DNA from: Bolinopsis microptera
Lineage: Eukaryota > Ctenophora > Tentaculata > Lobata > Bolinopsidae
Assembly (NCBI RefSeq): GCF_026151205.1
Contig: NC_087082.1
Coordinates: forward strand, 10,734,901-10,798,900
Length of the DNA stretch: 64,000 nucleotides
Direction of reading: 5' to 3'
Shown here: positions 8,801 to 61,615 of the stretch, piece after piece
How the letters are laid out: every line of letters begins with the position of its first letter
Numbering within the stretch: the first letter of the stretch is position 1
Program-made: the position numbers and the translations under genes
The notes under the pieces: generated by a model
The model's input: the letters and a program-made list of their open reading frames with translations, nothing else
Databases searched by the model: none
What the model was told of the DNA's origin: nothing

Positions 8801-11800
8801 TAACTGTTTTAGAAATAAATAACGTCTTATGTTTTGACCATGCTCGATAATATATGACAAACTTAGCTATAGTTTTTTAAAAAGGGTTAAAATAGATTAA
8901 ATACAAATGCTTCCGACCAGAGTTGAAATTCTGTTAGAATTGAGGATAAAAACATACCCATAACTTTAGTGTCGATCTGCTGAGAGAAGAAAACGCACTC
9001 GAACATTGAACTGACAGTAAGATTCTGCTTCATGATAACGAAATTGAGGTTCTCTGGCGATAAATCCTTGATGAAACTGCAAAGATAGGGGTGTCATTAT
9101 TATTAGCTGTCAGTTTTATGTTTCTTTCAAGTACGTCTGTGTCATTTTAGAAGCGCAATTTGATGAAAAAACATGTTTTATAAAACGAAAATGTTTTTAC
9201 CACATATATAATGATTATATATAATTTTGATTTACGAGATTCTTTTTAAAAGATTTTCAAATTCATCAAATTTCTGATCATTTATTATAATGATCTGCCA
9301 AACAATGTCAACCCATCTCATCGGAAATTTAATGAATTTGAAAATCGTTTAAAAAGAATCTCGTAAATCAAAATTAAGAATTCCACATTGCCCGTACTTC
9401 ATACTTACTGGCAAAGTACAGTGTGTCTAGAGTACTCTATCGTGATGTTCCATTTCTGAGATTTAGACTCGCTGTTAGGAATTCCAAACTCCAGACTGCT
9501 TCCCCGGATATGGGGCCGTATTTTATATTTTGTACAGTCTGAAATAATTGTCACGTGGTTATTTGTCACGTGGTTAATTGTCACGTGGTTATTTGTCACG
9601 TGGTTATTTGTCACGTGGTTATTTGTCACGTGGTTATTTGTCACGTGGTTATTTGTCACGTGGTTATTTGTCACGTGGTTATTTGTCACGTGGTTGTTTG
9701 TCACGTGGTGATTTGTCCGCGCGGCTCTGCCTTGTGCTGAGACGTGGATTCTGGTTGGGAAGTGAAACAAACACGTGACAGCAGTTAACTAGTCAGCTTC
9801 CACTATTGACCTATCAAACCCCAGACTCTCCTATCAAAAATAGATGCTCAACCTCCTCACCAGAATCAAATTAAACATCTATTATTATAGTTAAAGCAAC
9901 TTCTCACGAACAAACATCACCACCATGGCTACCATTAAATTGGACGTTGATCCAATACTGGAGTGCTTCTTAATAACTATAAAAGAATCTACCGATAAGA
10001 AAAAATATCAACCAAACTTAATAAAAATGTGTACCTGAGCAGCCAGCCTCTTTTACGAGTATTTTAATCCCTGAAGGGTCGATATTTCCGTAATCCGTTA
10101 CATTGTGCAGGCATATGTTAACGAATGTCTTTTTTCCATGAACTCGTTCGCTGAAATTAAAACAAATATAATTTAATCATGATGTCACGATTCATGAATC
10201 CTTCCCCTAATTTTAAAATTTCCTTGGAGTAAAAACAAGAGTCTAGTTAAAAAGCCATGTAGGAATCGATTGCTTAGGACTGTGTGAACTATGAAATCCC
10301 CATCCTTCAAAAGGTGACGATATTTGAGGTGATCAGGATTAATCAGGTTGTTCCCTCTTATTAAACATTCTAAGATCTGTTCCAGTATTCAATCTCTCTT
10401 CGATCCTTTTCTTAAAAATCTTAGTGCCTTGGCCAGTAAAAAGTGCCAAGGATTGAGTAGAAATCCAATACAAGCAGGGTGACACCTTCAACAAAAGCTT
10501 AACTACAATAGTATTTATATTTATTATTTATATTGTAGACAATAGAGGCTGTTAGTCCTTGGTCCGGGTATGGGAACGAACAATGGTCCAGAACAAAAGC
10601 CTCGTTTTCAGAAATTTACTGGCACTGTAGTGGTTAGTATCATATTTTAAACATGTTTTAAACTAATTAAAACACTACAAATCTATTGCATTTATTGAGG
10701 ACGTTACAGAAGGAATTGATTTAATATAGTTTGAGAAGTCCTAACTCTCCTCACGTCCGAAAATGTCGTTTCTCTTGTATCAAATATAAGCACAGCTATT
10801 ATATTCGGTAGAACACAGTATGTATAACCCTGGGCAGTATCTAGATAGCCCGACCACTGTCACGAACAACTGTCTACCAGATCATATTACTGCATAATAA
10901 CAGTATCCCCTGAATCAAGCAGGGTTCACATTATCGCACGCGAATTTCAATCAGCGGTGGTGTCAAGGCTTATTAAACGATTAAGCAACCTTACGAGATC
11001 AGTTCACCACCTCCAGCCGCTGTATTACAACCCAGTCATCCAGCTGATGTATTACAGCCTAGTCCTCCAGTTGCAGTTGATCATCCCCCTTCTACAAGCA
11101 GAGTAGCAACTGATAATGCTTCACAAAAAACGAACGACTTAGGCCCTTTGTTTCTGTCTAGTTCTAATGTACCGTCACAATAGTGACTTTAAATATATAA
11201 TCAAGAGTACTAGCCTGCTGATTTATCGCGGCTGTTCTCATCTGAAACTATGCTTGGTGTAGCTCGTTGGGATAATGGATATAAAACCAAATTATTCTCC
11301 CTTCTCTAGGTTACGCTGCATTCGCATGGCAGCATAGAATAGACGAAGCCCAATACATAAAGACCAAGATGCAGGCAATTCAGAGACACGCTAGTATCAT
11401 GATATCAAGAGGACTCAAAAGCACACCACTAGAAAACTTGGAAATCATGGCAGGAATCAAACCCATTGATCTAAAACTCAAGGAACTGGCCATACTTTCA
11501 GCTCGGAGACTCAAAATTAACGGTAATTGGAATTCTAACTACCAGTTTAGCAGAACAGGAAACTGTAAGTCCCATGCATACAATCTGGACAAAGCTATGT
11601 CAACCATACCAGCGATGGAATGTAAAATTACGGACATTATCGAAACTACCACAGTTTTGGATCGGAAGTTTAAAACAATAATACAGGAGCGGTCTAAAGC
11701 AACACAGCAGGTCGGAATCACCCCAGCAACACATTGGGCTATTTTCACAGACGGCTCAAAAATAGAACAGTTCCCAGGTGCAGGTTACTGTGTAATAAGA

Positions 11801-14800
11801 AACGCAATCGAGGTCCAGAGACAAAGTTTCCACCTAGGCACTAATGCAACGGTATACCAGTGTGAACTGTTTGCTCTCAACACATCAGCTCACTGGGCAA
11901 CTATCAATATTTCAGAACCTGGGAGTATAACATTCTTTTCAGACTCACAGGCAGCAATCCTAGCAGTCACACACCACACGGTCACATCTAACTTAGTTCT
12001 TGATACCATTAACTACCTTAACAAACTAGGACAAACCCACTCAGTCAATGTCAGGTGGGTCCCAGGACATGCAGGAATTCCAGGAAACGAAAGAGCTGAT
12101 GAACTAGCCAGAGAAGGATCACTCACAATCGCTCTAGGTCCTGAACCCTTCATCAGCATATCCGAAGGAGCAATTAAGACGGCAGTAAAGGAGTATTTAC
12201 ACGGAATTCATCTTCGTAGATACAGGAACACGGCACTGAGCGAGAAAGGGAAAATACCACTAACAATCCTACTCACCAAATATAAATACAGGAATCTTGG
12301 ACTTGCAGGAAATCATCAAAGATGGCTAACCTGGCTCTTCACAGGACATAGCCCCCTAGCCTACTTCCAATACAAGGCAAACAATTTCACATCCCCCCGT
12401 TGTGAACACTGTCCAGAAGAGGAAGAAACCTCGGAACACTTCATGTGTCACTGTATAGGATACATGACCATTAGGTTAAGAATTTTCGGTAATATATTTC
12501 TAACCTGGGAAGACATAGTATCAGCTAGAATTAGTACGGTTATAAAATTTATCGAGGCAACCAATAGACTTTTAAAGGAGGATCTTTTCGAGGATCCCAT
12601 TAACCACTAATACAAATAGGACATCTTGCAGTTTACTAGGCATTGACTGTCCCTGGAAGTCCCTGTCTCCCCATCGTTAACCCGTAAGGGGTTGCACCAG
12701 GGGCGGTGGTAACAGAACTTCAAGACTCTCGGAGTCTGTTGTCGATATCTATGTATAATATATTTATGGTATATAATTTGGGAGTCTCTCTCTCCAGCAG
12801 CAGGAGTTGGAGAATGGGGACGCGTTGTGAAAGCCACCGCAAGGAAGGCTTACAGTCGACGCCGACCAATCAAAAGAAGCTCGTTGGGATAGTATAGGAA
12901 TTCTAGTTCCTATAGTTGGGAATGAGGTAGTTGTCTGTTCACAGATCGCCCTCTAAAAACTTACAAGGAAATATTTCCTGTAGATCCTTGGTATATAAGC
13001 AACATTTGACAGAGCTGGTAGACAGGTGTTCGTGGACAGTTGTTCGTGGACAGTTGTCCGCGGACAGTGGTCGGGCTATCTAGATACATGGTTAGTGCGT
13101 TTACTCGAGTATTGCAACCCCTGAGCGCTTATTACAAGAACATTGATACCACGATGAATAATGGATCAACTGTTTTACCGATAAAAAGAGATTTTGGAAG
13201 ATTTTTGAAGATGAGCTTTTCTGCCGTGCCCGTCTCCTAGACAGAAATTTCGCGGTTTGACTGAAATTTTGACCAGTAAACAATTAGTGAGGTCGGTCAG
13301 AGTGGCACAAGTCGCCATCAAGGTACTGGAAGCAGTATATCCGGAGAAAACTTTGTAACTTTGATGCAATGAACATTTTTAATATGTCCTAACGGTAGAA
13401 CATATTCGAATTGCAGCTTTCCGCGACCCAAATTGCACTGTTTTAACTCAATTTTCCTTAAATGACCATCTTACAGGGTCACTGAGGATGGTACAAGACA
13501 CTATTGAGGTACTCAACGTTCTATCTGTTGAAGTGCAATTTTAAAATTTTCGGCTCATGTCCCAGAATAAATGGGCCGCCATAGTGCCACGAGATTGCCA
13601 CGAGAGTGCCACGAGAGTGCCACGAGAGTGCCACGGGAGTGCCACGAGAGTGCCACGAGAGTGCCACGAGAGTGCCATCGAGATCCGGATGTATTACCGG
13701 TATTTTCAGCGAAATAAAACTCCAAGGATAAACAGGACTTACCCCACACTACTAATACCACTACTAGTTACTACTGCTAGTTTTTACTCACCCCATGTTA
13801 CAGAGATATCCAGAGAATTCCTGGTCATTCCTCACTACAGACATTACACTGTGGTCTTCTGCTTGAACCGTCATGTTACCTGCCCGGATAAATAAAGTGA
13901 GGAAACATTCCTAAAACTCTAATTTGTACATCCCTAGTACAACTTCTTGGTAATTCGGTAATCTGTCGATGGTCACATAACGCTCCTTAACCTAGCGGTT
14001 TGTGACCATGTGCCCCCCCCCCCTCCCCGATTGATAAAGTACCCGATAATAACTGAGTAAAAGAACCTTGAAATTTGAGAACATTGTGCTCAACATCCTC
14101 GTTGGCGTAATTGCGAGTAAAGACACTGACTCTGCCGAAGTACATCGTATCTGGAGGAGGTGTTAAAATGTTAACAATGTTAATCGTGTTAACAACGTTA
14201 AAAAAAGATTGAGATGGCTTTTTAAAAAGGAACTTTGAGAACAGACATGTTAAAAAAGAATTGCAACATGATCAACTTACCGTTTATATAAGTCCACTCT
14301 TCAGAAAGTCCATAGTACGGAGCACTCTTTATAGGAATTCTTGTTTGCTCTGCCTCCTGTGTGTACATTGTGTGTACATTGTGTGTACATTGTATGTACA
14401 TTATGTGTACATTGTGTGTACATTGTGTGTACATTGTGTGTACACTGTGTGTACATTGTGTGTACATTGTGTGTACATTGTGTGTACATTGTGTGTACAT
14501 TGTGTGTACATTGTGTGTACATTGTGTGTACATTGTGTGTACATTGTGTGTACATTGTGTGTACACTGTGTGTACATTGTGTGTACATTGTGTGTACACT
14601 GTGTGCACATTGTGTGTACATTGTGTGTACACTGTGTGTACATTGTGTGTACATTGTGTGTACATTGTGTGTACATTGTGAAGTGAACATACTCATTTAT
14701 TTTCAATAAACTCTATTGCTCACAGTGCTGACATAATTAAAACACTACAAAGTACAAATCTGTCGCATTTCTTGGGGTAAATAAGAGGGAAGTATGATTT

Positions 14801-30094: not shown

Positions 30095-33000
30095 CTAAAT
30101 ACCGAAACCTCGGCTGCTTTCTTCGGCGTAAGCATACAGAAGATCTTCATCCTCCACAGACGTTTCCTCCTCCAACCCATGGGAATTCCAGGGCTGCACC
30201 TCAGCGGAACTAAACACACAGTACTGAAGAGATCCAAACATCCAAACCGCTGAAGCTGATAGGAAGGCTATTTTCCACCGTTCATGCAGTTTATCATGAT
30301 CATTTGGATCAACATCATTGACAAGAAGACCAACAGCGATGGGGCCCAGGATTCCAGCAACAGCACAAAGTCCATTACCAATACCACAGAGGATGGCAGA
30401 GAAGCGAGGAGAGAGATCAGCATAGTTCACATAATAGCAGAGGTGGGCGTAACCCTGGAAATACATTGCTATATTCATAAGAATCAGGATGGGGACATTG
30501 TTCTCACAGTAGGCCATGGCAGCCAGAAGAATGGCGGGAATAATCTGGGCAGCAACACTACACAGTTTCTTGTCCATGTTTTTGACAGTATTTCCGTTTC
30601 TTATAAGAAGATCAGAAAGGTATCCACCGGAAGTGTAACCAAGGTAAATCATGACGTAAGGTAGCGAGGCTATAAACCCGGAGTCTTTCATGTTGTACTG
30701 CAAAACTTCGATCATAAACTTGGGAATGTCTGACAGTAACATGAAGAACCCATACCTGAGGAATTTCGGATTGAATTGCATGTTTCGTAAACAACAGGTC
30801 AAAGATTCTTGAATTTTTCGAAATTTAAAAGTTGAGAGTAGAAATAACCATTCTTCGAGTTTGGCATTATTAACATACCCATTACAAGTGTGTATGACAC
30901 AAGTTGACCAAAATCGTCCGCTCTTCAGAATACTTTTCCAGGGTATTTCAGATATCTGAACTGCTTTCCTTGGGACTGTAGTCGCGGCCAAGTATTCCCT
31001 TTCAGAGGTGGAAGTCCAGTATGATGTGGCCGGATCATCTCTAACAAATACAAACCATAGCAGAGCCCATAGTACTCCACAGCCTCCATACACATAGAAA
31101 AGACTGGGCCAGCCCTCTAAAAAGCTACCAGAAGCTAACAGTCCAGAAACAGAGTTCGCCAGGACAGCCCCCAGATACTGACCACCGCCCCCTAAAGCTA
31201 TAAACGTGGCAAACTGAGAAGAAGGGGCCCAGTTTGCAATGATGTTCAGGGCCACTGGGAATGTTACACCTTGCCCCAATCCAATGAAAAGACGCAGTGC
31301 AATGAACAGCCAAAAGTTGACACCAGAGATAAAAGGACAAAGGAAGGTTGCTAGGATGGCGATGAAGAGGCCGATACTAAAGACTTTGCTGGCCCCAAAA
31401 TAACAGCATATCACAGCGCCCGGAAGCTGCGTGGCCCAGTAGCCCCAGAAAAATGAGCTCAGAACGTAACCTAGGAAAAATATTTTTAATTTTCACTCGA
31501 TGTGGAAATACGTTACCCGAACACTATTATCATTGAATTTAAAGACCGATCTTAAACTGGATAGGATATGTTAATTATCTGTAATGTTAATGAAAAAATA
31601 CAAGAGGCAGAAAAGAAAGCTAAATAAGAACCTTGTTGAGCTTGAGACCAACATCTTGTATCATTTGCAGTACAATTTTCTGGGGCAACCACCATCTCAC
31701 TATCCAACGCGAAACTGAAAAATCATCATTCAATCAAAACTATTCTGTTCGATGTGACTAAGAAGCTGCGTCATGCAACTCCTCTTTTTTCTGAACCCAT
31801 GCTGGTTCGTATTGATCATCATGTTCTCTTCCAAATGACGAACCAGGTTTTTTCTGATGACACACTCAAATGTCTTTATGATGTGCGAGGTTAAAGACAC
31901 TGGTCTATAGTTTGCTGGGTCCGTTCTGTCCCCCTTCTTATAGATAGGGGTGATATATTAGGTCTTTAATTCCGCTGGTATATACCCACTGCTGAACGAT
32001 TCCTGCCAGAGGAGTGTTAGCGGGTCTGCAAGTTGTTCTTTGCAGGCTGTGAGTATCCTAGCAGGAATCTCTCCGTCAGGTGCGGCAGAATAGGGATCCA
32101 GTTCTCCTAATGCTTCAATGATATCTTTTCTTGTGAAGCTTAGCTCATTGAATCCGGAATTCAGTCCCTGAGGTAATCCTTGGCTCTTCATACATTCATC
32201 AATATCAGCACTCATAGGGTTACTAAATACCTTCTGGTACTGCTTCTGAAGTAACTCTGCCTTGATACTGGGGTCGTCCACTAATGCCCCAGTCTCATCT
32301 CTCAACACCGGGATCGTAGATCTGGTCTTCTGAAAACGCTTGGCATACGAAAAGAAGTATTTCGGGTTCTTCTTTATTAGGTGTGCCTAAAGTACAGGGT
32401 GTGCCTAAACTACAGGGTGTGCCTAAACTACAGGGTGTGCCTAAACTACAGGGTGTGCCTACTGCCTAAAGTCTGGTCAGGATTTACGTTTTAAATAACC
32501 TTTTCTCCCCAACTGGAACCTTCGCAGTAAATCGGGGTTTTACTGTGCTAGGATTCGTATGATAGGTAGAACTACAGGGTGCAGTATTCCTAGTTTTATA
32601 TAAATATAACCTGCCCAAGCTAAAAAGCCATGGCAGGGCCAGCAGGCAAAGCCCAGACTAAATCCTACTGAGCTGACTAGTGACTACGTATGAAATAACA
32701 ATAGGGGAATGAACAATGAATAATGTGTACATACATATACATACATATACACATATACATACATATACATATACATTATACAGGTACCATGTATTATAGA
32801 GAGAAGGTGTACCAAAATAAGAATACTAGGTACCTGATGTTGAGAGCAGTACAAGTGTGTACCTAAATAATAACACTAGGTACCTGATGTTGAGAGCAGT
32901 ACAAGTGTGTACCTAAATAATAACACTAGGTACCTGATGTTGAGAGCATTGCAAGTGTGTACCTAAATAAGAACCTAAATACTAACCTAAATAATAACAC

Positions 33001-33508: not shown

Positions 33509-33576
33509 CTTAAGTGATTAAAAGGTTTAGAACAAGTAAATAATTAGTAAATAAATAATAAGTAACTAGTTATTAA

Positions 33577-39921: not shown

Positions 39922-42900
39922 CGTGCAAGTGTGTACCTAAATAATAACACTAGGTACCTGATGTTGAGAGCATTGCAAGTGTGTACCTAAATAAGAACCT
40001 AAATAATAACACTAGGTACCTGATGTTGAGAGCATTGCAAGTGTGTACCTAAATAATAACACTAGGTACCTGATGTTGAGAGCATTGCAAGTGTGTACCT
40101 AAATAATAACACTAGGTACCTGATGTTGAGAGCATTGCAAGTGTGTACCTAAATAAGAACCTAAATAATAACACTAGGTACCTGATGTTGAGAGTATTGC
40201 AAGTGTGTACCTAAATAATAACACTAGGTACCTGATGTTGAGAGCATTGCAAGTGTGTACCTAAATAAGAACCTAAATAATAACACTAGGTACCTGATGT
40301 TGAGAGCATTGCAAGTGTGTACCTAAATAATAACACTAGGTACCTGATGTTGAGAGCATTGCAAGTGTGTACCTAAATAAGAACCTAAATAATAACACTA
40401 GGTACCTGATGTTGAGAGCATTGCAAGTGTGTACCTAAATACTAACACTAGGTACCTGATGTTGAGAGCATTGCAAGTGTGTATCTAAATAATAACACTA
40501 GGTACCTGATGTTGAGAGCATTGCAAGTGTGTACCTAAATAATAACACTAGGTACCTGATGTTGAGAGCATTGCAAGTGTGTACCTAAATAAGAACCTAA
40601 ATAATAACACTAGGTACCTGATGTTGAGAGCATTGCAAGTGTGTACCTAAATAAGAACCTAAATAATAACACTAGGTACCTGATGTTGAGAGCATTGCAA
40701 GTGTGTACCTAAATAATAACACTAGGTACCTGATGTTGAGAGCATTGCAAGTGTGTACCTAAATAATAACACTAGGTACCTGATGTTGAGAGCATTGCAA
40801 GTGTGTACCTAAATAATAACACTAGGTACCTGATGTTGAGAGCATTGCAAGTGTGTACCTAAATAATAACACTAGGTACCTGATGTTGAGAGCATTGCAA
40901 GTGTGTACCCAAATAATAACACTAGGTACCTGATGTTGAGAGCATTGCAAGTGTGTACCTAAATAATAACACTAGGTACCTGATGTTGAGAGCATTGCAA
41001 GTGTGTACCTAAATAATAACACTAGGTACCTGATGTTGAGAGCATTGCAAGTGTGTACCTAAATAATAACACTAGGTACCTGATGTTGAGAGCATTGCAA
41101 GTGTGTACCCAAATAATAACACTAGGTACCTGATGTTGAGAGCATTGCAAGTGTGTACCTAAATAATAACCTAAATACTAACCTAAATAATAACACTAGG
41201 TACCTGATGTTGAGAGCATTGCAAGTGTGTACCTAAATAATAACACTAGGTACCTGATGTTGAGAGCATTGCAAGTGTGTACCTAAATAAGAACCTAAAT
41301 AATAACACTAGGTACCTGATGTTGAGAGCATTGCAAGTGTGTACCTAAATAAGAACCTAAATAATAACACTAGGTACCTGATGTTGAGAGCATTGCAAGT
41401 GTGTACCTAAATAATAACACTAGGTACCTGATGTTGAGAGCATTGCAAGTGTGTACCTAAATAATAACACTAGGTACCTAATGTTGAGAGCATTGCAAGT
41501 GTGTACCTAAATAAGAACCTAAATAATAACACTAGGTACCTGATGTTGAGAGCATTGCAAGTGTGTACCTAAATAATAACACTAGGTACCTGATGTTGAG
41601 AGCATTGCAAGTGTGTACCTAAATAATAACACTAGGTACCTGATGTTGAGAGCATTGCAAGTGTGTACCTAAATAATAACACTAGGTACCTGATGTTGAG
41701 AGCATTGCAAGTGTGTACCTAAATAATAACACTAGGTACCTGATGTTGAGAGCATTGCAAGTGTGTACCTAAATAAGAACCTAAATACTAACACTAGGTA
41801 CCTGATGTTGAGAGCATTGCAAGTGTGTACCTAAATAATAACACTAGGTACCTGATGTTGAGAGCATTGCAAGTGTGTACCTAAATAATAACACTAGGTA
41901 CCTGATGTTGAGAGCATTGCAAGTGTGTACCTAAATAATAACACTAGGTACCTGATGTTGAGAGCAGTACAAGTGTGTACCTAAATAATAACACTAGGTA
42001 CCTGATGTTGAGAGTATTGCAAGTGTGTACCTAAATAATAACACTAGGTACCTGATGTTGAGAGCATTGCAAGTGTGTACCTAAATAATAACACTAGGTA
42101 CCTGATGTTGAGAGCATTGCAAGTGTGTACCTAAATAATAACACTAGGTACCTGATGTTGAGAGCATTGCAAGTGTGTACCTAAATAAGAACCTAAATAC
42201 TAACACTAGGTACCTGATGTTGAGAGCATTGCAAGTGTGTACCTAAATAAGAACCTAAATAATAACACTAGGTACCTGATGTTGAGAGCATTGCAAGTGT
42301 GTACCTAAATAATAACACTAGGTACCTGATGTTGAGAGCATTGCAAGTGTGTACCTAAATAATAACACTAGGTACCTGATGTTGAGAGCATTGCAAGTGT
42401 GTACCTAAATAATAACACTAGGTACCTGATGTTGAGAGCATTGCAAGTGTGTACCTAAATAAGAACCTAAATACTAACACTAGGTACCTGATGTTGAGAG
42501 CATTGCAAGTGTGTACCTAAATAAGAACCTAAATAATAACACTAGGTACCTGATGTTGAGAGCATTGAAAGTGTGTACCTGAATAATAACACTAGGTACC
42601 TGATGTTGAGAGCATTGCAAGTGTGTACCTAAATAATAACACTAGGTACCTGATGTTGAGAGCATTGCAAGTGTGTACCTAAATAAGAACCTAAATACTA
42701 ACACTAGGTACCTGATGTTGAGAGCATTGCAAGTGTGTACCTAAATACTAACCTAAATAAGAACCTAAATAATAACACTAGGTACCTGATGTTGAGAGCA
42801 TTGCAAGTGTTTACCTAAATAATAACACTAGGTACCTGATGTTGAGAGCATTGCAAGTGTGTACCTAAATAATAACACTAGGTACCTTATGTTGAGAGCA

Positions 42901-45900
42901 TTGCAAGTGTGTACCTAAATAATAACACTAGGTACCTGATGTTGAGAGCATTGCAAGTGTTTACCTAAATAATAACACTAGGTACCTTATGTTGAGAGCA
43001 TTGCAAGTGTGTACCTAAATAATAACACTAGGTACCTGATGTTGAGAGCATTGCAAGTGTGTACCTAAATAATAACACTAGGTACCTGATGTTGAGAGCA
43101 TTGCAAGTGTGTACCTAAATAATAACACTAGGTACCTTATGTTAAGAGCATTGCAAGTGTGTACCTAAATAATAACACTAGGTACCTGATGTTGAGAGCA
43201 TTGCAAGTGTGTACCTAAATAATAACACTAGGTACCTGATGTTGAGAGCATTGCAAGTGTGTACCTAAATACTAACCTAAATAATAACACTAGGTACCTG
43301 ATGTTGAGAGCATTGCAAGTGTGTACCTAAATAATAACACTAGGTACCTTATGTTGAGAGCATTGCAAGTGTGTACCTAAATAATAACACTAGGTACCTG
43401 ATGTTGAGAGCATTGCAAGTGTGTACCTAAATAAGAACCTAAATAATAACACTAGGTACCTTATGTTGAGAGCATTGCAAGTGTGTACCTAAATAAGAAC
43501 CTAAATAATAACACTAGGTACCTGATGTTGAGAGCATTGCAAGTGTGTACCTAAATAAGAACCTAAATACTAACACTAGGTACCTGATGCTGAGAGCATT
43601 GCAAGTGTGTACCTAAATAATAACACTAGGTACCTTATGTTGAGAGCATTGCAAGTGTGTACCTAAATAATAACACTAGGTACCTGATGTTGAGAGCATT
43701 GCAAGTGTGTACCTAAATAAGAACCTAAATAATAACACTAGGTACCTGATGTTGAGAGCATTGCAAGTGTGTACCTAAATAAGAACCTAAATAATAACAC
43801 TAGGTACCTGATGTTGAGAGCATTGCAAGTGTGTACCTAAATAATAACACTAGGTACCTGATGTTGAGAGCATTGCAAGTGTGTACCTAAATAAGAACCT
43901 AAATAATAACACTAGGTACCTGATGTTGAGAGTATTGCAAGTGTGTACCTAAATAAGAACCTAAATAATAACACTAGGTACCTGATGTTGAGAGCATTGC
44001 AAGTGTGTACCTAAATAAGAACCTAAATAATAACACTAGGTACCTGATGTTGAGAGCATTGCAAGTGTGTACCTAAATAATAACACTAGGTACCTGATGT
44101 TGAGAGTATTGCAAGTGTGTACCTAAATAAGAACCTAAATTATAACACTAGGTACCTGATGTTGAGAGCATTGCAAGTGTGTACCTAAATAATAACACTA
44201 GGTACCTGATGTTGAGAGCATTGCAAGTGTGTACCTAAATAAGAACCTAAATAATAACACTAGGTACCTGATGTTGAGAGCATTGCAAGTGTGTACCTAA
44301 ATAATAACACTAGGTACCTGATGTTGAGAGCATTGCAAGTGTGTACCTAAATAATAACACTAGGTACCTGATGTTGAGAGCATTGCAAGTGTGTACCTAA
44401 ATAATAACACTAGGTACCTGATGTTGAGAGCATTGCAAGTGTGTACCTAAATAATAACACAAGGTACCTGATGTTGAGAGCATTGCAAGTGTGTACCTAA
44501 ATAATAACACTAGGTACCTGATGTTGAGAGCATTGCAAGTGTGTACCTAAATAATAACACTAGGTACCTGATGTTGAGAGCATTGCAAGTGTGTACCTAA
44601 ATAATAACACTAGGTACCTGATGTTGAGAGCATTGCAAGTGTGTACCTAAATAAGAACCTAAATAATAACACTAGGTACCTAATGTTGAGAGCATTGCAA
44701 GTGTGTACCTAAATAATAACACTAGGTACCTGATGTTGAGAGCATTGCAAGTGTGTACCTAAATAAGAACCTAAATTATAACACTAGGTACCTAATGTTG
44801 AGAGCATTGCAAGTGTGTACCTAAATAATAACACTAGGTACCTGATGTTGAGAACATTGCAAGTGTGTACCTAAATACTAACCTAAATAATAACACTAGG
44901 TACCTGATGTTGAGAGCATTGCAAGTGTGTACCTAAATAAGAACCTAAATAATAACACTAGGTACCCGATGTTGAGAGTATTGCAAGTGTGTACCTAAAT
45001 AATAACACTAGGTACCTGATGTTGAGAGCATTGCAAGTGTGTACCTAAATAATAACCTAAATTATAACACTAGGTACCTGATGTTGAGAGTATTGCAAGT
45101 GTGTACCTAAATAATAACACTAGGTACCTGATGTTGAGAGCATTGCAAGTGTGTACCTAAATAATAACACTAGGTACCTGATGTTGAGAGCATTGCAAGT
45201 GTGTACCTAAATAATAACACTAGGTACCTGATGTTGAGAGCATTGCAAGTGTGTACCTAAATAAGAACCTAAATAATAACACTAGGTACCTGATGTTGAG
45301 AGCAGTGCAAGTGTGTACCTAAATAATAACACTAGGTACCTGATGTTGAGAGCATTGCAAGTGTGTACCTAAATAAGAACCTAAATAATAACACTAGGTA
45401 CCTGATGTTGAGAGCATTGCAAGTGTGTACCTAAATAATAACACTAGGTACATGATGTTGAGAGCATTGCAAGTGTGTACCTAAATAAGAACCTAAATAA
45501 TAACACTAGGTACCTGATGTTGAGAGCATTGCAAGTGTGTACCTAAATAATAACACTAGGTACCTGATGTTGAGAGCATTGCAAGTGTGTACCTAAATAA
45601 GAACCTAAATAATAACACTAGGTACCTGATGTTGAGAGCAGTGCAAGTGTGTACCTAAATACTAACCTAAATAATAACACTAGGTACCTGATGTTGAGAG
45701 CATTGCAAGTGTGTACCTAAATAAGAACCTAAATAATAACACTAGGTACCTGATGTTGAGAGCAGTGCAAGTGTGTACCTAAATAAGAACCTAAATAATA
45801 ACACTAGGTACCTGATGTTGAGAGCATTGCAAGTGTGTACCTAAATACTAACCTAAATAATAACACTAGGTACCTGATGTTGAGAGCATTGCAAGTGTGT

Positions 45901-47120
45901 ACCTAAATACTAACCTAAATAATAACACTAGGTACCTGATGTTGAGAGCATTGCAAGTGTGTACCTAAATAATAACACTAGGTACCTGATGTTGAGAGCA
46001 TTGCAAGTGTGTACCTAAATAAGAACCTAAATAATAACACTAGGTACCTTATGTTGAGAGCATTGCAAGTGTGTACCTAAATAAGAACCTAAATAATAAC
46101 ACTAGGTACCTGATGTTGAGAGCATTGCAAGTGTGTACCTAAATAAGAACCTAAATACTAACACTAGGTACCTGATGCTGAGAGCATTGCAAGTGTGTAC
46201 CTAAATAATAACACTAGGTACCTTATGTTGAGAGCATTGCAAGTGTGTACCTAAATAAGAACCTAAATAATAACACTAGGTACCTGATGTTGAGAGCATT
46301 GCAAGTGTGTACCTAAATAATAACACTAGGTACCTGATGTTGAGAGCATTGCAAGTGTGTACCTAAATAAGAACCTAAATAATAACACTAGGTACCTGAT
46401 GTTGAGAGTATTGCAAGTGTGTACCTAAATAAGAACCTAAATAATAACACTAGGTACCTGATGTTGAGAGCATTGCAAGTGTGTACCTAAATAAGAACCT
46501 AAATAATAACACTAGGTACCTGAAGTTGAGAGCATTGCAAGTGTGTACCTAAATAATAACACTAGGTACCTGATGTTGAGAGTATTGCAAGTGTGTACCT
46601 AAATAAGAACCTAAATTATAACACTAGGTACCTGATGTTGAGAGCATTGCAAGTGTGTACCTAAATAATAACACTAGGTACCTGATGTTGAGGAGCATTG
46701 CAAGTGTGTACCTAAATAAGAACCTAAATAATAACACTAGGTACCTGATGTTGAGAGCATTGCAAGTGTGTACCTAAATAATAACACTAGTACCTGATGT
46801 TGAGAGCATTGCAAGTGTGTACCTAAATAATAACACTAGGTACCTGATGTTGAGAGCATTGCAAGTGTGTACCTAAATAATAACACTAGGTACCTGATGT
46901 TGAGAGCATTGCAAGTGTGTACCTAAATAATAACACAAGGTTACCTGATGTTGAGAGCATTGCAAGTGTGTACCTAAATAATAACACTAGGTACCTGATG
47001 TTGAGAGCATTGCAAGTGTGTACCTAAATAATAACACTAGGTACCTGATGTTGAGAGCATTGCAAGTGTGTACCTAAATAATAACAACTAGGTACCTGAT
47101 GTATTGAGAGCATTGCAAGT
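39922..47120. repeat. Giant minisatellite, 50/64-bp units (first block)
   Basis: About 130 near-identical units. The 50-bp form joins acctaaataataacactagg, tacctgatgttgagagcatt and gcaagtgtgt; the 64-bp form has an extra aagaacctaaat. On the minus strand each unit contains TTATTATTTAG, then GTACACACTTGCAATGC..., then CAACATCAG before GTACCT. The last part is the same as the exon 2 donor of the SLC17 genes. Single-base indels appear near the right end (46691, 46789, 46938, 47085), just before the scrambled block. Confidence 0.95.
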
Positions 47121-48390
47121 GGTAAATCACTAGGAATATCAGAGAGCAATGTACTAATAAATAAAACACTTATGTACTAATGTTGTATGCAGATCCTTCA
47201 ATGTGCATCGCTATAATAATAAACACTAGGTAAGTGATCGTTGAGCGCTATGTGCAGTGTGTACCTACATATAGATCTATACTTATCACTAGCTCTAAAA
47301 TGTCGAAGAAGCCAAGTGGTTACAAATTAAAAAAAAATAAGTACCTGTATTGTTGGAGAGACTATTGAACGGTACCGATAGAAATACTATGATGATATAA
47401 GATACAGGTGTGCAATCAGGTCCCTTTACTAAGTCGTATGAGCAATTGAAAGTGTTGGCCCTTTAAAAAAGGAACCCCCTTCAGACAAAATATATATTAG
47501 GACCCATCCTTGCCGGCTTTTGCGGTGATAACTAAATGTTAAATAGGTACTTACTGATGTTGGGTATTAAAGTAAGTACCCACATAATTCTTAAATTCAT
47601 AAACATAGGCAAATATACCGTATTAGTAGGGTATTGTCAATGTGTGACTTAATAATAAACTAGAAACATTTTTGAGATTACAAAAAATACCCTAAATAAA
47701 AACTAGAAACCTATATTGAGAGACATTGCAAGTTGAAATTGATAAATGAAGCCTTGTTACAGAGCATTAACTGTTTCTGGAAATGAGCAGAGACCTAATT
47801 AATAACAAGGTACTAACTGGTTTTGAAGATAGCAAGTGTACACACCAATAATACATTCGACCTATGGAAATAAACTTTCTTTCCAACATTCTAAAGAAGC
47901 AGTGAGTGTTGTACCTCTGGGATAAATAAAAACACAATACATGAGTTCCATCTTTCCTTCAGTGCTCTGCTTTGGACATTAGCGTGTGTACATATAATCT
48001 ATCCTAATTGCAAAAGTCAAGGACATGATTGAGACATTGTCAAGTGTGTACCTTAAATACAGCCTAAATTTAATTTAAATGGCTGTGTTGAGAAGCATGC
48101 AACGGAGACCTTAAAGCAATATCTTGGCCTGGGACGTGGTGGCTGAAGCCCATTGCAAGTGGTTTCCCGTAAATAAAACCTTTAAAATCCATAAACCTGG
48201 TTTACCTGTTTGTTGATAGGTGCTAAGTGTGGTATCCTAAATACTAACCTCAACAAAAAATAACACAAGCCGTACCTTGATGTTGATAGTATGAATAAAA
48301 TTGGAATAACAATAATAATGGAACCTAAAATAAATAACACATATACACGATGTCTGATACATTATAAGGGTTTTACCTTATTATAGAAGA
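47121..48390. other. Scrambled block inside the minisatellite, likely assembly artefact
   Basis: The sequence alternates between pieces of the satellite unit and pieces of other parts of this window in the same order. 47144-47155 matches 38715-38726 (gagcaatgtact), 47510-47526 matches 39189-39205 (ttgccggcttttgcggt), and 47940-48060 tracks the LINE fragment at 39712-39870. The last part (about 48100-48390) tracks 32480-32840, the left flank of the short array in copy C. This is what a consensus made from wrongly stacked reads looks like. Confidence 0.75.
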
Positions 48391-50982
48391 AATAATAACA
48401 CTAGGTACCTGATGTTGAGAGCATTGCAAGTGTGTACCCAAATAATAACACTAGGTACCTGATGTTGAGAGCATTGCAAGTGTGTACCTAAATAAGAACC
48501 TAAATAATAACACTAGGTACCTGATGTTAAGAGCATTGCAAGTGTGTACCTAAATAATAACACTAGGTACCTGATGTTGAGAGTAGTGCAAGTGTGTACC
48601 TAAATAATAACACTAGGTACCTGATGTTGAGAGCATTGCAAGTGTGTACCTAAATAAACACTAGGTACCTGATGTTGAGAGTAGTGCAAGTGTGTACCTA
48701 AATAATAACACTAGGTACCTGATGTTGAGAGCATTGCAAGTGTGTACCCAAATAATAACACTAGGTACCTGATGTTGAGAGCATTGCAAGTGTGTACCTA
48801 AATAATAACACTAGGTACCTGATGTTGAGAGCAGTGCAAGTGTGTACCTAAATAATAACACTAGGTACCTGATGTTGAGAGCATTGCAAGTGTGTACCTA
48901 AATAAGAACCTAAATAATAACACTAGGTACCTGATGTTGAGAGCAGTGCAAGTGTGTACCTAAATAATAACACTAGGTACCTGATGTTGAGAGCATTGCA
49001 AGTGTGTACCTAAATACTAACCTAAATAATAACACTAGGTACCTGATGTTGAGAGCATTGCAAGTGTGTACCTAAATAAGAACCTAAATAATAACACTAG
49101 GTACCTGATGTTGAGAGCATTGCAAGTGTGTACCTAAATAAGAACCTAAATAATAACACTAGGTACCTGATGTTGAGAGCATTGCAAGTGTGTACCTAAA
49201 TAAGAACCTAAATAATAACACTAGGTACCTGATGTTGAGAGCATTGCAAGTGTGTACCTAAATAAGAACCTAAATAATAACACTAGGTACCTGATGTTGA
49301 GAGCATTGCAAGTGTGTACCTAAATAAGAACCTAAATAATAACACTAGGTACCTGATGTTGAGAGCATTGCAAGTGTGTACCTAAATAAGAACCTAAATA
49401 ATAACACTAGGTACCTGATGTTGAGAGCATTGCAAGTGTGTACCTAAATAAGAACCTAAATAATAACACTAGGTACCTGATGTTGAGAGCATTGCAAGTG
49501 TGTACCTAAATAATAACACTGGGTACCTGATGTTGAGAGCATTGCAAGTGTGTACCTAAATAAGAACACTAGGTACCTGATGTTGAGAGCATTGCAAGTG
49601 TGTATCTAAATAATAACACTGGGTACCTGATGTTGAGAGCATTGCAAGTGTGTACCTAAATAATAACACTGGGTACCTGATGTTGAGAGCATTGCAAGTG
49701 TGTACCTAAATAAGAACACTAGGTACCTGATGTTGAGAGCATTGCAAGTGTGTATCTAAATAATAACACTGGGTACCTGATGTTGAGAGCATTGCAAGTG
49801 TGTACCTAAATAATAACACTAGGTACCTGATGTTGAGAGCATTGCAAGTGTGTACCTAAATAAGAACCTAAATAATAACACTAGGTACCTGATGTTGAGA
49901 GCATTGCAAGTGTGTACCTAAATAATAACACTGGGTACCTGATGTTGAGAGCATTGCAAGTGTGTACCTAAATAATAACACTAGGTACCTGATGTTGAGA
50001 GCATTGCAAGTGTGTACCTAAATAAGAACCTAAATAATAACACTAGGTACCTGATGCTGAGAGCATTGCAAGTGTGTACCTAAATAAGAACCTAAATAAT
50101 AACACTAGGTACCTGATGTTGAGAGCTTTGCAAGTGTGTACCTAAATAAGAACCTAAATAATAACACTAGGTACCTGATGTTGAGAGCATTGCAAGTGTG
50201 TACCTAAATAAGAACCTAAATAATAACACTAGGTACCTGATGTTGAGAGCATTGCAAGTGTGTACCTAAATAATAACACTAGGTACCTGATGTTGAGAGC
50301 ATTGCAAGTGTGTACCTAAATACTAACCTAAATAATAACACTAGGTACCTGATGTTGAGAGCATTGCAAGTGTGTACCCAAATAATAACACTAGGTACCT
50401 GATGTTGAGAGCAGTGCAAGTGTGTACCTAAATAAGAACCTAAATAATAACACTAGGTACCTGATGTTGAGAGCATTGCAAGTGTGTACCTAAATAAGAA
50501 CCTAAATAATAACACTAGGTACCTGATGTTGAGAGCATTGCAAGTGTGTACCTAAATAATAACACTAGGTACCTGATGTTGAGAGCAGTACAAGTGTGTA
50601 CCTAAATAATAACACTAGGTACCTGATGTTGAGAGCATTGCAAGTGTGTACCTAAATAAGAACCTAAATAATAACACTAGGTACCTGATGTTGAGAGCAT
50701 TGCAAGTGTGTACCTAAATAATAACACTGGGTACCTGATGTTGAGAGCATTGCAAGTGTGTACCTAAATAAGAACCTAAATAATAACACTAGGTACCTGA
50801 TGTTGAGAGCATTGCAAGTGTGTACCTAAATACTAACCTAAATAATAACACTAGGTACCTGATGTTGAGAGCATTGCAAGTGTGTACCTGAATAATAACA
50901 CTAGGTACCTGATGTTGAGAGCAGTACAAGTGTGTACCTAAATAATAACCTAAATACTAACCTAAATAATAACACTAGGTAC
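48391..50982. repeat. Giant minisatellite, 50/64-bp units (second block)
   Basis: About 47 further units of the same repeat, with own variants (cactgggtacc, gagcagtgcaag). It ends exactly at the donor of exon 2 of SLC17 copy D (50983). Confidence 0.95.
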
Positions 50983-51474
50983 CTGATATTGATACGTAGG
51001 ATGTAGTCCATAATAAAGCCGTAACTCAGCAACAAAACTATCACATATCTAAACCAGCCCTGAAGAGAGAAAACAACAGGTTAAACACAAACAAGGGATG
51101 AAAAATTGAGAGGCGGTGTTATTTCATTACTAATAATTTACATATCGCGACAGTTTAGGTTCTGGGGAGGGAAAGGTTGTAGTCTGTAAGTGTTTAAGCA
51201 GAAACCTATGTATTCATTAGGCTTGAATAGTTTAATATTTAAATTTTCACCAAAAATGATAATGCTATTAATAGCTGGGCACCATAATTAACCATAGACA
51301 TATGGTGTTTAATAATAAAATAATAAACAAATATTAGATAAATAATAACATATAACTTACGGCTGATTTAACAGAAGTCTTGCTCTGAACGCTGTTCTCC
51401 ACTCCGTCTCCTCCGAGTAACGGAACACTCGAGTCTACAATACCTTCATCTGACATATCATCATAATCCACCAT

Positions 51475-53557: not shown

Positions 53558-56500
53558 TTAACGTTGTCCATACAGCCACAATAATAATCTACAAACCTCA
53601 GCCAGGAAGCGGTTGAGAGCCTCGTAGTAGCCGTAACATTGCCAAGTCCCATTGTGGGTTCCACTCTCAAAACACTCGATACGCTTCATGGTGCTGCCAC
53701 ATAACTGTGGGGTCAGATCAGCTAATATGTGAGATCAGATCAACTAATTTGTCAATTTGTGGGATCATATCAAATAATATGTGGGATCAGATCAACTAAT
53801 ATGTGGGATCAGATCAACTAATTTGTCAATTTGTGGAATGAGATCAAATAATATGTGGGATTAGATCAGCTAATATGTGGGATCAGATCAGCTAATATGT
53901 GGGATCAGATCAACTAATTTGTCAATTTGTGGGATCAGATCAAATAATATGTGGGATTAGATCAGCTAATATGTGGGATCAGATCAGCTAATATGTGGGA
54001 TCAGATCAACTAATTTGTCAATTTGTGGGATCAGATCAAATAATATGTGGGATTAGATCAGCTAATATGTGGGATCAGAGTAGCTAATATGTGGGATCAG
54101 AGTAGCTAATATGTGAGATCAGATCAAAAGGTTTTAAACCTGAAGGAAATTTAATTTGAGAAAGGTTAATTTAACCTGTTTGGAAGTCCCAGAGTCCAAC
54201 CAATTTCACCATTTTGCTCCAAATTTTCGGCCTTCCCAGTCCCCCATTGAATTTTTCAAAAGTGTTTCTAAACTGCTATAAAAATCTCTCTAAAAAAGCC
54301 AGGTTCAAACATTGTCAGCTTAGGTTGAGGTGCCACTTTTTGAACTTATTTTTTACCTATGGTGGCGTTTACAGTGCAATGCGCGCATCGTGTACACTAC
54401 AGTGCAATGAGCACCAAAGAATTGGTTCAGTACGCGAATCTCCATAAATCTATAAAAAGCTATACAACTAATAAATTAACAACGAAACTCTAAATACCCA
54501 TATATCGTTCAGAGCACCAAGAGAATATTAACTAATTGTACAACACTACAGATCAACTAATGGGATGGAAGCGTTCTAAATGAAAAGCTCAAATGAAGGA
54601 ATGCATTCTACTATTGTACTTATAATAAACCAAGTCTGCTCATACATCCAGAGCAGACTTAGAAATCATCATAATAATATAATAGTTAAGTAAAATACCG
54701 CTATATATAACATTATAATTAGTATGTCGCCTAAATAATTACAAGCATGTGCTCGCTATTCATGTTTATCCAGATCTCTCCGCATTGTTCTTCAACATTT
54801 TCTTAAACTTAGTTTCTTGAATTAAAGTCAAAGCAAGCTCATGAGAGAGGAAAACGCAGATAAAGATCTAACATATTCTAGAGCAAATCAAAGGTTATAT
54901 AATATAATATATTAATTAAGCGGCATAAATCAAATCAGTAAAATGTAAATTTGAATAGGTAAGTAATTAGGGAAGCGGAAGAAGATATTATATAATCAAC
55001 TTACAGTGTATAATGTACAATGTACAATGTATAATCAACTTACAGTGCATAATGTACAATGTATAATCAACTTACAGTGTATAATGTACAATGTACAATG
55101 TATAATCAACTTACAGACTATAATGTACAATGTACAATGTATAATCAACTTACAGTGTATAGATCGCGGGTCATTTTGGGAGGGACGAGTGTATCAGCCA
55201 TACCAGATATGAATAGAGTGGGAGAAGATACCCGTTTTATCTCCTCTACACTCAGAAACTGAAAGAAAACATCATCATCAAAAACATCATCATCAAAAAA
55301 CATTTAAATAATTATAAACAAGAATTTATCTTTGTGTCCATATTTCATTATAAGGGAGTCCTTTGTGTCCACATTTCATTATATTGGAGTCAACGCAAAG
55401 GCAACAAATTAACACTGGTCAAAATATTGCAACACATGGTTAGTGGTTACGGATGTTAAGAATTAAGATGCACCTGAAATCTGAGTGAGGAACAACATAC
55501 CGACCCGGCATTTAATTTAGTAGAGCAGACTCGGTCGTAGAAAGATATTAGAAATTAAAAAGAAGACCGATGTCCCAAATGATCACCCTACCGCATCCTT
55601 TATACTTTATAGAGCAATACTAGTTCAAGTTCAACCGTAACTCTGGAATGGGCACTCCTATACCCTAATGGGCACCCTAAGGGTACTAGTTAGGGGACCC
55701 TGACTAATTCCCAATTAATATTAATAGTCCGACAAGGCGACAAAGTTACTAAGAAATTATTTCTTCTTGAAAAGATGGACGAGCACAGCTGTGCCCAAAT
55801 ACCTAGTCAGACGTCCGGGGGAGGGGGGTGATCTGAAAATCTGCGATTTTAGCGGACGTCCTAAGTAGATGGCCCCCTAGTCAATGACGTAGTTATCAAG
55901 GAGTAAGGTGATAACAAACCGTGCGTGATGGCGCGCGCGGCGTGCGTCGGTACATTACCGAATTGGCCCCAAACCCACACACTAGCCTGGCTCCTTTTCT
56001 CTCTTCACTTAAATTGTTATCATTACTTAACCAATACTTAAATAGTGACTTCTGCCTTTCTGCTACTGCCAATGAAACGAAAGTCATTCACACAGAAATT
56101 AATCTACATTATATTTATAGTTAATGTTAGCACAAGATAATAAGTAAAAAGTCACCCTGCTAACCAATAGTAAATAGTAACCTTGTTTCTGTAGCAGAAT
56201 AAAGGAAGGTATTTAGTTAGAGGGAAGATGACATGTGCCATCTCTGGAATGGAAGTGAAGGTATTCTCCAGGATCAGGGCGAATATCTTGTCTTGATACA
56301 GTTTACTGGCAGACAGGTGAACCGCCACTCCTCCGCCTAAAGTTTTGTAATATTGTATTATCAATAATATAAATATTATTAATATTTACAATACTACACT
56401 ATCAATATCACAATTTAATTTACTTAATTAATATTATTACTTATTTATTTTAGTAATATAGCGGAGAGGTGAACCGCTACTCCTCCACCTAAAGTTTTTA

Positions 56501-59500
56501 ATATTTTATATCAATATTATGAATATTATTAATATTTACTATATTATTACAATATCAATATCACAATTTATTTAATTAATATTATTATTTATTTATTTTA
56601 ATAATATAGCGGAGAGGTGAACCGCTACTCCTCCACCTGTCATTAAATTGAAACTATTTCAGAAGTCCTGTTTAATAATTGATTTCCCACATATGACAAG
56701 AGATATTGGCAGAAACTGCAGTAACTTGTGAAGTTTTGACATTTAGAAAGATTAGACGTGGGCGTTTTTAAAGACTATCCCTTATTTAGAACTTTCATTT
56801 AATAAATTCCAGCATCAGAAGTCATGTTTACGAATTTATTTAAATTACGGGCAAATATCATTCAATTTAAGTCTTATGTTTCAGTACCTATTACTCAAAG
56901 TTAATAAAATTTCAAAGTTAACAGCTCAATAATATAAGGGAGAGATGAACCGCCACTTTAATGACTACTCCACCTGAGTTAAATTGTTACACTTTCCCGC
57001 GTTATGTTTCTATTATTATCGGAAATAACGCGCTCTTTAAAGTTATATTTACCAAGGCTCCGTCCATATACAATAATCCTTCGTCTATCGATATCTTCTC
57101 TTGAAAGAAGAAACTCTAATCCACCCTCAGCATCCATCTTCATTCCTGGATAAGAGTTTATTGGATCAAAAGAAACCCCATGTAGCCTAATTTGAATGTC
57201 CAGTAGAGAGAAATGATACTTTAAGGGGGCCGGGGGGGGTGTTCATCAAAATTCTCTCGAAATCGACTTTATAGTTGTTTCTGATAGAGGGGAGTGATAT
57301 CTATCAGCTGCTTTTGGTCCCATGGAAAAATATTGTTCCTAGCCGAAATTATTGCCGGTCTAAGGTCAGCGCTTATGTGTAATTGTATTGCGCGAGCGAT
57401 TTTCAATCGCAAATTCTGAAAATCGAGTCTAAAAATCTATCTTCTCCCACATTTTTTGAGTAATCACCCTGAAACTTTCAGGATATGTTCTAGGGACCAT
57501 TTAAAAGAGATCACTAGGACAAAATTTTGAGATAGGCCTTTAAAAAATTTTATTCAATTTTGAAAATCTTGGACCTCAAAAAATTGTAAAAAAACGAGGT
57601 CCAAGATTTTCAAAATTGAATAAAAAATTTTTAAAGGCCATCTCAAAATTTAGTCTGAGCGATCTCTTTTAAATGGTCCCTAGAACATATCCTGAAAGTT
57701 TCAGGGTGATTACTCAAAAAATGTGGGAGAAGATAGAATTTTAGACTCGATTTTCAGAATTTGCGATTGAAAATCGCTCGCGCAATACAATTACACATAA
57801 GCGCTGACCTTAAACCGGCGATAATTTCGGCTAGGAACAATATTTTTCCATGGGACCAAAAGCAGCTGATAGATATCACTCCCCTCTATCAGAAACAACT
57901 ATAAAGTCGATTTCGAGATAATTTTGATGAAGACCACCCCCAGCTGGGTAAAAAGTTGTGCTATCGGCTATAAAGTATAGATTCACCATATTCGGATGCC
58001 AGTCCATCACTCTTCCCGAATCCCCTCCACTCTAACAAGAAGATATTGCACCCACAGAAACTATGAAGAGCTTTAGCGTTTATCAGTCGGTGTCCCACGT
58101 TCCCCGCGTTGCCGTGCAGGAAGATAACAGTGGGCGCGGTCGCTAGCTGAGGGAGGGGGGCATGTTAGATACTGCACAGTAAACAAAACCTGATTTACCG
58201 TAGCATTAAAGTCATTGAAATGGCCCATCAAACATAAATACCGCGTCATTTGATTTTAAACTAAGTTTCACACTCTTTAGCAGAGTAGTAGAGCGGTTCA
58301 TTAAGGGGGGAGGGGGGTTCACCCTGATTTTTTGTGAACCTTGGTTTCGAGATAGCAAGTCCGGTGACCAACAAACTAGGACCGGTGACCGAACTTTTGA
58401 GGGGGTCCCGGACCCTAACAGCCAAACGGTGCCCGCGGGGCAGCCACGCCCATATTTGGTCCAAATTAGGCCCAATTTAGCCAAATACCCTAAACATGCC
58501 CAAAATCCAGATTTTAGGTTCTCTACTTGTAGCTAGTGGTCCCCTAAATTCGTAAATGAATTTTCATCAAGATTGGACAAAAAATGACTGAGTTATGAGC
58601 CAAAAACCATATGACCATATTTGGGCATACGCACCAAATTTGATCGATTTTGGCCCATAAATTGGTCAAATATCAATATTTTTGAATGAATCTAACTTTA
58701 TATGGAAGGTAAGCCTATACTACACATTATCTATGATTATCAGCTCAGTAGCTACCTAACTGTGGATTCTGTGTTCAAATAATCGCAAAAAATTAACAAA
58801 ATTGCCCATATCTCAGTTCGCGAAATTTTTTTAAAGGCCTAACTCAACATTTTAATACAAAACGTAAGGTCGAAATGCGATTCTACGTTGATTATGAAAA
58901 TTTCATGTAAAAATATTGAAACCCTATTGAGTTCTATTGTTTTGAGTGAAATCAGTTTTGCAAATATCGCGAACTGAGATATGGGCGGTTTTGTTAATTT
59001 TTGGCGATTATTTAAACACAGAATCCACAGTTAGTTAGATACTGAGCTGATAATCATAGAGAATGTGTAGTATATGCTTACTTTCCATATAAAGTTGGTT
59101 TGATTCAAAATTATTGATATTTGACCAATTTATGGGCCAAAATCGATCAAATTTGGTGTGTATGTCCAAATATGGTCATATGGTTTTTGTCTCATAACTC
59201 AGTCATTTTTTGTCCAATCTTGATGAAAATTCCTATACGAATTAAGGGGACCACTAGCTACAAGTACAGCACCTAAAATTTGGATTTTGGGCATGTTCAG
59301 GGTATTTGGCTAAATTGGGCCTAATTTGGACCAAATATGGGCGTGGCTGCCCCGCGGGCACCGTTTGGCTGTTAGGGTCCGGGACCCCCTCAAAAGTTCG
59401 GTCACCGGTCCTAGTTTGTTGGTCAACTGCTATCTCGAAACCAAGTTTCACAAAAAAATCAGGGTGAACCCCCCCCCCCCCCCCCCCCTTAAGTTCACCA

Positions 59501-60966: not shown

Positions 60967-61615
60967 TCATGTTACAACAAGTTATCATGGGTTACCAATG
61001 GCTACAACAAGTTAGTGTGGGTTACTAATGGCTACAACAAGTTACTGTGGGTTGCTAATGGCTACAACAAGTTAGTGTGGGTTACCAATGGCTACAACAA
61101 GTTACTGTGGGTTACTAATGGCTACAACAAGTTAGTGTGGGTTACTAATGGCTACAACAAGTTACTGTGGGTTACCAATGGCTACAACAAGTTAGTGTGG
61201 GTTACTAATGGCTACCACAAGTTACTGTGGGTTACCAATGGCTACAACAAGTTAGTGTGGGTTACTAATGGCTACCACAAGTTACTGTGGGTTACCAATG
61301 GCTACAACAAGTTAATGTGGGTTACTAATGGCTACAACAAGTTACTGTGGGTTACTAATGGCTACAACAAGTTAGTGTGGGTTACTAATGGCTACAACAA
61401 GTTACTGTGGGTTACCAATGGCTACAACAAGTTAGTGTGGGTTACTAATGGCTACCACAAGTTACTGTGGGTTACCAATGGCTACAACAAGTTAGTGTGG
61501 GTTACCAATGGCTACAACAAGTTACTGTGGGTTACTAATGGCTACAACAAGTTACTGTGGGTTACCAATGGTTACTACAAGTTACTGTGGGTTACCAATG
61601 GTTACTACAAGTTAC
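60967..61615. repeat. 30-bp minisatellite beside an ABHD13 acceptor, about 21 copies
   Basis: Units of gttactgtgggttaccaatg plus gctacaacaa, often alternating agttactgtg and agttagtgtg, giving a 60-bp higher order. It begins about 12 bp from the acceptor of exon 60827-60954. The long plus-strand frame over it only reflects the multiple-of-three period. Confidence 0.95.

Follow-up and report, generated by a model that had tools for sequence, protein, structure and literature searches.

Minisatellite Arrays at Splice Junctions of a Ctenophore Genome and Their Likeness to the Mirages of Lancelets

Several minisatellite arrays in a 64,000-nucleotide stretch of Bolinopsis microptera DNA (NC_087082.1), hereafter called the window, touch or cross the splice sites of the genes that hold them. 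The arrangement raises the question of whether exon-intron junctions are favored sites of tandem duplication in this genome, or whether arrays are so common in introns that some are bound to end at an exon border. We approached this question with gene models in the window, and then with an independent sample of 35 myosin and kinesin genes.

Arrays at Splice Junctions in the Window

Analysis of the window with TRF yielded 63 rows, which hand merging reduced to 32 arrays. Six of these are located in the six modelled introns of a minus-strand gene that we call ABHD13-like for its presumed similarity to the human protein. The gene was modelled by spliced alignment against a peptide read from the same DNA, and one missing exon was added by reading. 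Because the peptide was our own reading, the alignment demonstrates that frames and splice sites agree with each other, and is no separate proof of homology. Such proof comes instead from the joined translation, which matches Hydrolase_4 (3.6e-16) and Abhydrolase_1 (3.4e-15), compared with 2.5e-4 when one part of it is taken by itself. When compared with a structure database, the joined translation matched generic alpha/beta hydrolases.

Four of the six merged arrays in this gene lie within 15 bp of a junction or cross one. All of the arrays described here for the gene are read on its minus strand. A 39/32-bp array (54991..55161) spans the donor at 55154 and reaches 8 nt into the modelled exon, and its unit holds CACT|GTAAGTTG. 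An array with a unit of about 148 bp (56315..56638) spans the acceptor at 56336, where its unit includes the acceptor and about 22 nt of the modelled exon start; a further degenerate copy of this unit can be read near 56938-56978. The 22-bp array at 53706..54127 is flush with the acceptor at 53704 (distance 1 bp), and its unit carries CACAT, not the CACAG of an acceptor. A 15-bp array (55266..55303) that had been overlooked in the preliminary description of the window lies 7 bp from the acceptor at 55258. Finally, a 30-bp array (60973..61615) lies 18 bp from an acceptor at 60954 that is placed by reading and frame only.

Introns of the same gene also contain, by reading, two long near-palindromic repeats (57250-57940 and 58305-59490). 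Their inverted arms are several hundred bases long, and a related stretch is located at 33570-34310.

A second set of arrays belongs to copies of an SLC17 gene. A 465-aa frame at 30098-31492 matches sialin, vesicular glutamate transporters, and MFS_1, and exon 2 of this gene is present in four copies (A to D) that carry AG|GT at the identical place. As judged by TRF and sequence comparison on the minus strand, copy C has a 50-bp array (32807..33017) across the exon-2 donor at 33008, with three inner donor copies. Copy D has a 50/62-bp array (39997..50992) across the exon-2 donor at 50983, in which 175 inner donor copies were found, spaced mostly by 50 or 62 bp and with the GT kept in 174. The unit shared by C and D agrees with 9 of the last 10 exon nucleotides and 25 of the first 30 intron nucleotides, but with only 11 of the last 20 exon nucleotides. 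Because the array at this donor is common to both copies, the two represent one case inherited via gene duplication. Copies A and B carry no array, and their intron opens with single-copy DNA that resembles the C/D unit.

Three shorter look-alikes of SLC17 exon 2 are also present in the window (24246-24302, 29173-29229, and 34386-34442). In addition, a single-exon frame for a rhodopsin-type receptor (7tm_1; 37897-38937, minus strand) lies between exon 2 of copy D, near 50985, and the main frame of that copy (35414-36807). It may therefore be a gene nested in an SLC17 D intron of about 14 kb.

A third candidate gene is a putative receptor. Its hand-joined peptide matched no Pfam family at E 0.001, and thus its acceptors at 9538 and 14356 are unverified, although the letters at both positions read as first described. 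By TRF and reading on the minus strand, a 15-bp array (9548..9717) lies 9 bp from the first putative acceptor, and an 11-bp array (14358..14680) is flush with the second. The latter array had been said to supply the AG of the acceptor. It supplies only the A, since the site reads CACAG and the unit CACAA. A 441-codon plus-strand frame at 11285-12607 resembles, by eye, the RNase H end of a non-LTR retrotransposon.

Thus, six of the junctions originally named (four in the ABHD13-like gene and two in SLC17) do carry arrays, and that at 55258 is added as a seventh, while the two in the receptor gene are putative. The proposal that three families in the window have units holding both a splice site and an exon end also stands, for SLC17, 54991-55161, and 56315-56638.

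A Surplus of Junction-Touching Arrays in Myosin and Kinesin Genes

The independent sample consists of 11 myosin genes (12 stretches, with a gap in one gene) and 24 kinesin loci, and its choice was guided by exon matches to Myosin_head (73) and Kinesin (109). Two more kinesin stretches whose motor has no introns were used as queries. Gene models were built with a GeneWise-like aligner whose splice scores were learned from a first pass. Introns were kept if both flanking exons were at least 25 nt, which retained 122 of 136 myosin introns and 125 of 137 kinesin introns, or 247 in total, and dropped 14 and 12, respectively. Centered in these introns are 134 arrays (76 myosin, 58 kinesin). We call an array "touching" if it lies no more than 15 bp from a splice site or crosses it, and "spanning" if it extends at least 3 nt into the exon. 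Short units were left out below 7 bp for edge identity, 10 bp for motif tests, and 12 bp for unit relatedness.

Touching arrays number 42 of the 134. Under a null that places arrays uniformly within introns, 10.9 would be expected (myosin, 20 of 76 versus 5.7; kinesin, 22 of 58 versus 5.2). We set this four-fold surplus aside, because uniform placement forbids crossing and makes spanning arrays impossible. It was replaced by a closed-form seed null and by a fairer simulation, in which duplications were placed anywhere in collapsed introns and their exon flanks, then re-detected by TRF (5,825 counted). Against this simulation, and with arrays taken as independent for every p value, 42 touching arrays compare with 18.4 expected (p = 1.4e-7), 27 touched donors with 9.3 (p = 5e-7), 15 touched acceptors with 9.4 (a weak surplus; p = 0.049), and 15 spanning arrays with 9.5 (marginal; p = 0.053). 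Junction-touching arrays are about twice as frequent as chance in the sampled genes, and those at donors about three-fold. The enrichment near splice sites relative to random positions that had been predicted from the window is therefore present in both gene families, and it holds, though with less strength, under the fairer null.

Under the closed-form null, the touching ratio is 2.11 (gene-bootstrap 1.69-2.57), and 33 touching arrays compare with 17.0 expected once the two richest genes are removed. A touching array is present in 19 of the 24 gene clusters that have arrays, and the kinesin result is unchanged without two near-identical loci. Distances cluster between -38 and 16 bp at donors and between -33 and 27 bp at acceptors and are sparser beyond. 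For spanning arrays, the closed-form null gives 4.4 expected versus 3 found in myosin genes and 6.1 versus 12 in kinesin genes.

One could argue that no junction bias exists, and that arrays common in introns sometimes end at or straddle an exon border. Arrays make up 17.6% of the 160,474 intron bases in the sample, array coverage of the sampled introns does not rise from the deep intron toward the junctions, and the number of spanning arrays is close to neutral. These observations favor such an edge effect. However, simulated neutral duplications re-detected by TRF give 18.4 touching arrays, compared with the 42 observed. Furthermore, flush arrays show no residual similarity past their edge: mean identity in the 20 nt outside is 0.41 for flush donor arrays, 0.37 for flush acceptor arrays, and 0.39 at interior edges. 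Flush arrays are thus not clipped spanning arrays, and a decay model, in which they are old spanning arrays whose outer copy has diverged, is not supported by these values. We therefore regard a pure edge effect as unlikely, though it merits some weight.

Spanning Arrays Multiply Functional-Looking Splice Sites

The 15 spanning arrays fall in 15 of the 247 introns (6%), with nine at donors and six at acceptors. This count is a lower bound, because TRF at the settings used misses some long units. An example is the kinesin gene L040, in which a 158-bp duplication includes the acceptor and about 56 exon nt, with a 21-bp array between its copies. Thirteen of the 15 are clear; kL043 has an ambiguous donor and kL044 has no inner copy that we could find, and both were set aside. 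When up to four mismatches in 16 nt were allowed, the 13 clear arrays hold 278 inner copies with an intact GT or AG, of which 271 score within one bit of the functional site. These copies include 51 donors in a single kinesin intron and 111 acceptors in a different one. The scores of the two ABHD13-like rows in this comparison, which were off by one base, are not used.

If the nearest inner copy were used instead, the reading frame would shift or run into a stop in 12 of the 13 clear arrays. Judged by this coding continuity, the exon-proximal copy is probably the splice site in use. None of the 134 arrays touches its intron at both ends; the 15 spanning arrays stop 87-2542 bp short of the opposite junction.

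Single-Copy and Array States in Paralogs

Paralogs in which a junction exists both with and without an array offer a view of how such arrays may begin. Two myosin-like paralogs, g9 and g10, have a third modelled intron that closes with TTTCAG|ACGAGTCAG. A segment of about 72 bp that contains this acceptor and 33 exon nt is present once in g9 and three times in g10. The g9 segment is flanked by a 10-bp direct repeat, CAACTATTTC, with one copy in the intron and one in the exon; g9 is the one single-copy paralog in which a flanking direct repeat was seen. If g9 represents the older state, then the pair would fit a duplication in which short direct repeats slipped or exchanged unequally. Together with SLC17 copies A and B, g9 upholds one part of the original seeding proposal, namely that a segment at the junction has been duplicated.

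Copy number was compared among paralogs only. Besides the g9 and g10 difference, SLC17 C has three inner donors compared with about 175 in D.

A further pair of near-identical kinesin loci differs in a different manner. The L024 intron at 991-2053 corresponds to the L025 intron at 1077-1199, and about 930 bp are present in one of the two. The flanks overlap by 9 bp, which is the trace expected of a mobile element that inserted and duplicated its target.

A Proposed Model for the Origin of the Arrays

We consider it likely that the arrays in the window and in the sample are mirage-type minisatellites, as named in lancelets (see below), and that tandem duplications arise everywhere, those at junctions being both tolerated and in surplus. 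The following steps could account for them. First, a tandem duplication would arise from a short stretch of DNA that either crosses a splice junction or begins at one. Short direct repeats on either side, of the kind seen around one acceptor in g9 and presumed elsewhere, would probably give rise to it through slippage or unequal exchange. Second, the exon-proximal copy would stay in use, and the extra exon fragments and splice sites would become intron. A junction duplication would be tolerated precisely because the spliceosome keeps the exon-proximal copy. Third, the array would be free to grow or shrink as intron, as the 3 and about 175 inner donors of the SLC17 paralogs suggest. Duplications would arise throughout introns, with about twice the neutral number at junctions and about three times at donors. 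We propose a local mutational bias at exon-intron borders as the likeliest cause of this surplus. Neither a step in GC content nor donor strength differs at touched junctions, and neither therefore appears to be the cause.

It is conceivable, though less likely than not, that splice junctions in the ctenophore genome, and most of all its donors, are true hot spots for tandem duplication, with seeding tied to the border and occurring at or just inside the splice signal. Such seeding might proceed via co-transcriptional splicing or RNA-DNA structure. If this were true, then a steady flow of duplicated splice sites would be available from which new exons and introns could form, and this in what may be the sister lineage of all other animals.

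A stronger form of the original proposal is that splice junctions seed intronic repeats as a general rule, and that these repeats then spread inward. The donor-proximal surplus is in its favor. However, 92 of the 134 arrays lie farther than 15 bp from any junction, and the units of interior arrays have no clear link to splice signals. At the lowest threshold, donor-like sites are present on the sense strand of 15 of 82 interior units, compared with 8 of 82 on the antisense strand and a background of 11%; at higher donor thresholds the same 82 units show no clear sense-strand excess of splice motifs. A splice origin of interior arrays in general is therefore not supported, as the donor-motif excess is at most slight and is confined to the lowest threshold. 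Given the flat coverage and these interior units, junctions appear to be a favored birthplace of arrays but not the sole one.

In a motif search of the array units, splice-donor-like and GTAAC-type words are among those enriched, with no single core. The octamer AGGTAAGT occurs 10,764 times genome-wide versus 7,968 for its reversal, and its triples with gaps of 6-36 bp give 1,212 matches versus 11 for the reversed control. We do not accept this apparent 110-fold enrichment, because two other patterns and their reversals gave 432, 143, 189, and 911 matches; triples of TTTTCAGG gave 186 versus 84 reversed. Such counts mainly reflect a handful of long arrays, and we treat them as weak support. 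When distinct triple arrays were counted by eye in the part of the genome that allowed comparison (contig C1 plus contig C2 up to 2.72 Mb), seven were found for AGGTAAGT, of which two pairs share a unit, compared with 0, 1, and 3 for control octamers and 1 for TTTTCAGG. Although the seven favor general seeding, the arrays that lack junction contact lead us to judge this stronger proposal very improbable, and we retain the model of widespread duplication with a surplus at junctions.

Insertion at or beside splice sites, be it of mobile, introner-like, or dispersed minisatellite elements, is still less probable. The observation that favors such elements is that L040 (G000:C12:14833001-14837200) carries an identical 21-bp unit, TTACCATAGTTACACTACTAG, arrayed in the introns indexed 1 and 3, and that similar GTTAC-containing units are present in L038. 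One of the two L040 arrays is 21 bp before an acceptor and the other is 5 bp after a donor. The first sits between two copies of its acceptor and exon start. Among 35 touching units of at least 12 bp, however, there are only four related pairs at E 1e-4, such that units at different junctions are mostly unrelated. Moreover, the sequence duplicated in g9/g10 and in SLC17 is that of the junction itself.

We assign an equally small probability to the idea that selection maintains the arrays because they serve splicing or gene regulation. Intronic minisatellites of Caenorhabditis elegans have been linked to alternative splicing (PMC4039745), which lends the idea no direct support. Against it, units at different junctions are mostly unrelated, paralogs tolerate very different numbers of inner copies, and splice-site strength does not differ at touched donors. 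Duplication tolerated at junctions remains our preferred explanation.

Relation to Known Systems

The preliminary description knew of no named process of this kind. The structure has in fact been named: mirages are lancelet minisatellites that span an exon-intron boundary, and they are described for Adh3, the globins BflGb6 and BflGb9, troponin C, and PGBD5 (PMC3087553, PMC3902484). As these reports outline them, mirages resemble the arrays here in having a unit that lies across the boundary, in occurring at both 5′ and 3′ ends, and in carrying splice signals in many copies. The same accounts call the origin of mirages unclear and their copy number unstable, and thus the mechanism is no better defined there. 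For mirages this instability is both allelic and somatic, and they leave the splicing of normal mRNA unaffected; in the arrays here, coding continuity would require the exon-proximal copy. Our arrays differ in that they come from another phylum and were counted over 247 introns. They are also larger, with up to 111 inner acceptors and 174 intact inner donors, versus 6 and 3 units given for one lancelet gene. In addition, they include a further class that is flush with the splice signal but excludes it. Among the listed titles and abstract openings of open-access literature, we recognized no mirages outside lancelets. Repeats found by TRF are reported to make up 13% of one ctenophore genome (PMC8527503). 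In a structure database, a glutamate-receptor segment has its best match in ML032222a, a Mnemiopsis protein, and that segment matches the present genome at 81%.

Three other systems share some of these features. In intron gain by tandem duplication of AGGT-bearing exon sequence (PMC4974935), the duplication likewise carries splice signals, but it provides both ends of a new intron, which none of the 134 arrays does. The tandem dual-specific splice sites of polyubiquitin UBC (PMC10809524) also repeat once per unit. There, the repeat is coding and one site is both donor and acceptor, whereas here the copies are intronic and of one kind. Introner-like elements (PMC4457414) again tie repetitive DNA to splice sites, but these are multiplied introns that share sequence, whereas the array units here, which are all that was compared, are mostly unrelated.

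In the literature surveyed, mirages are reported for a few lancelet genes, and the present analysis provides a count in a ctenophore genome. Where as many as 111 inner acceptors or 174 inner donors with intact signals accompany the one copy that coding continuity requires, an intron amounts to a natural experiment on how the spliceosome chooses among sites. A simple first-AG rule would not predict use of the last of about 112 acceptors. Spanning arrays also put a number on the duplicated splice sites that models of exon and intron gain can draw on. In the introns that carry such arrays, the prediction of genes and the mapping of short reads may fail.
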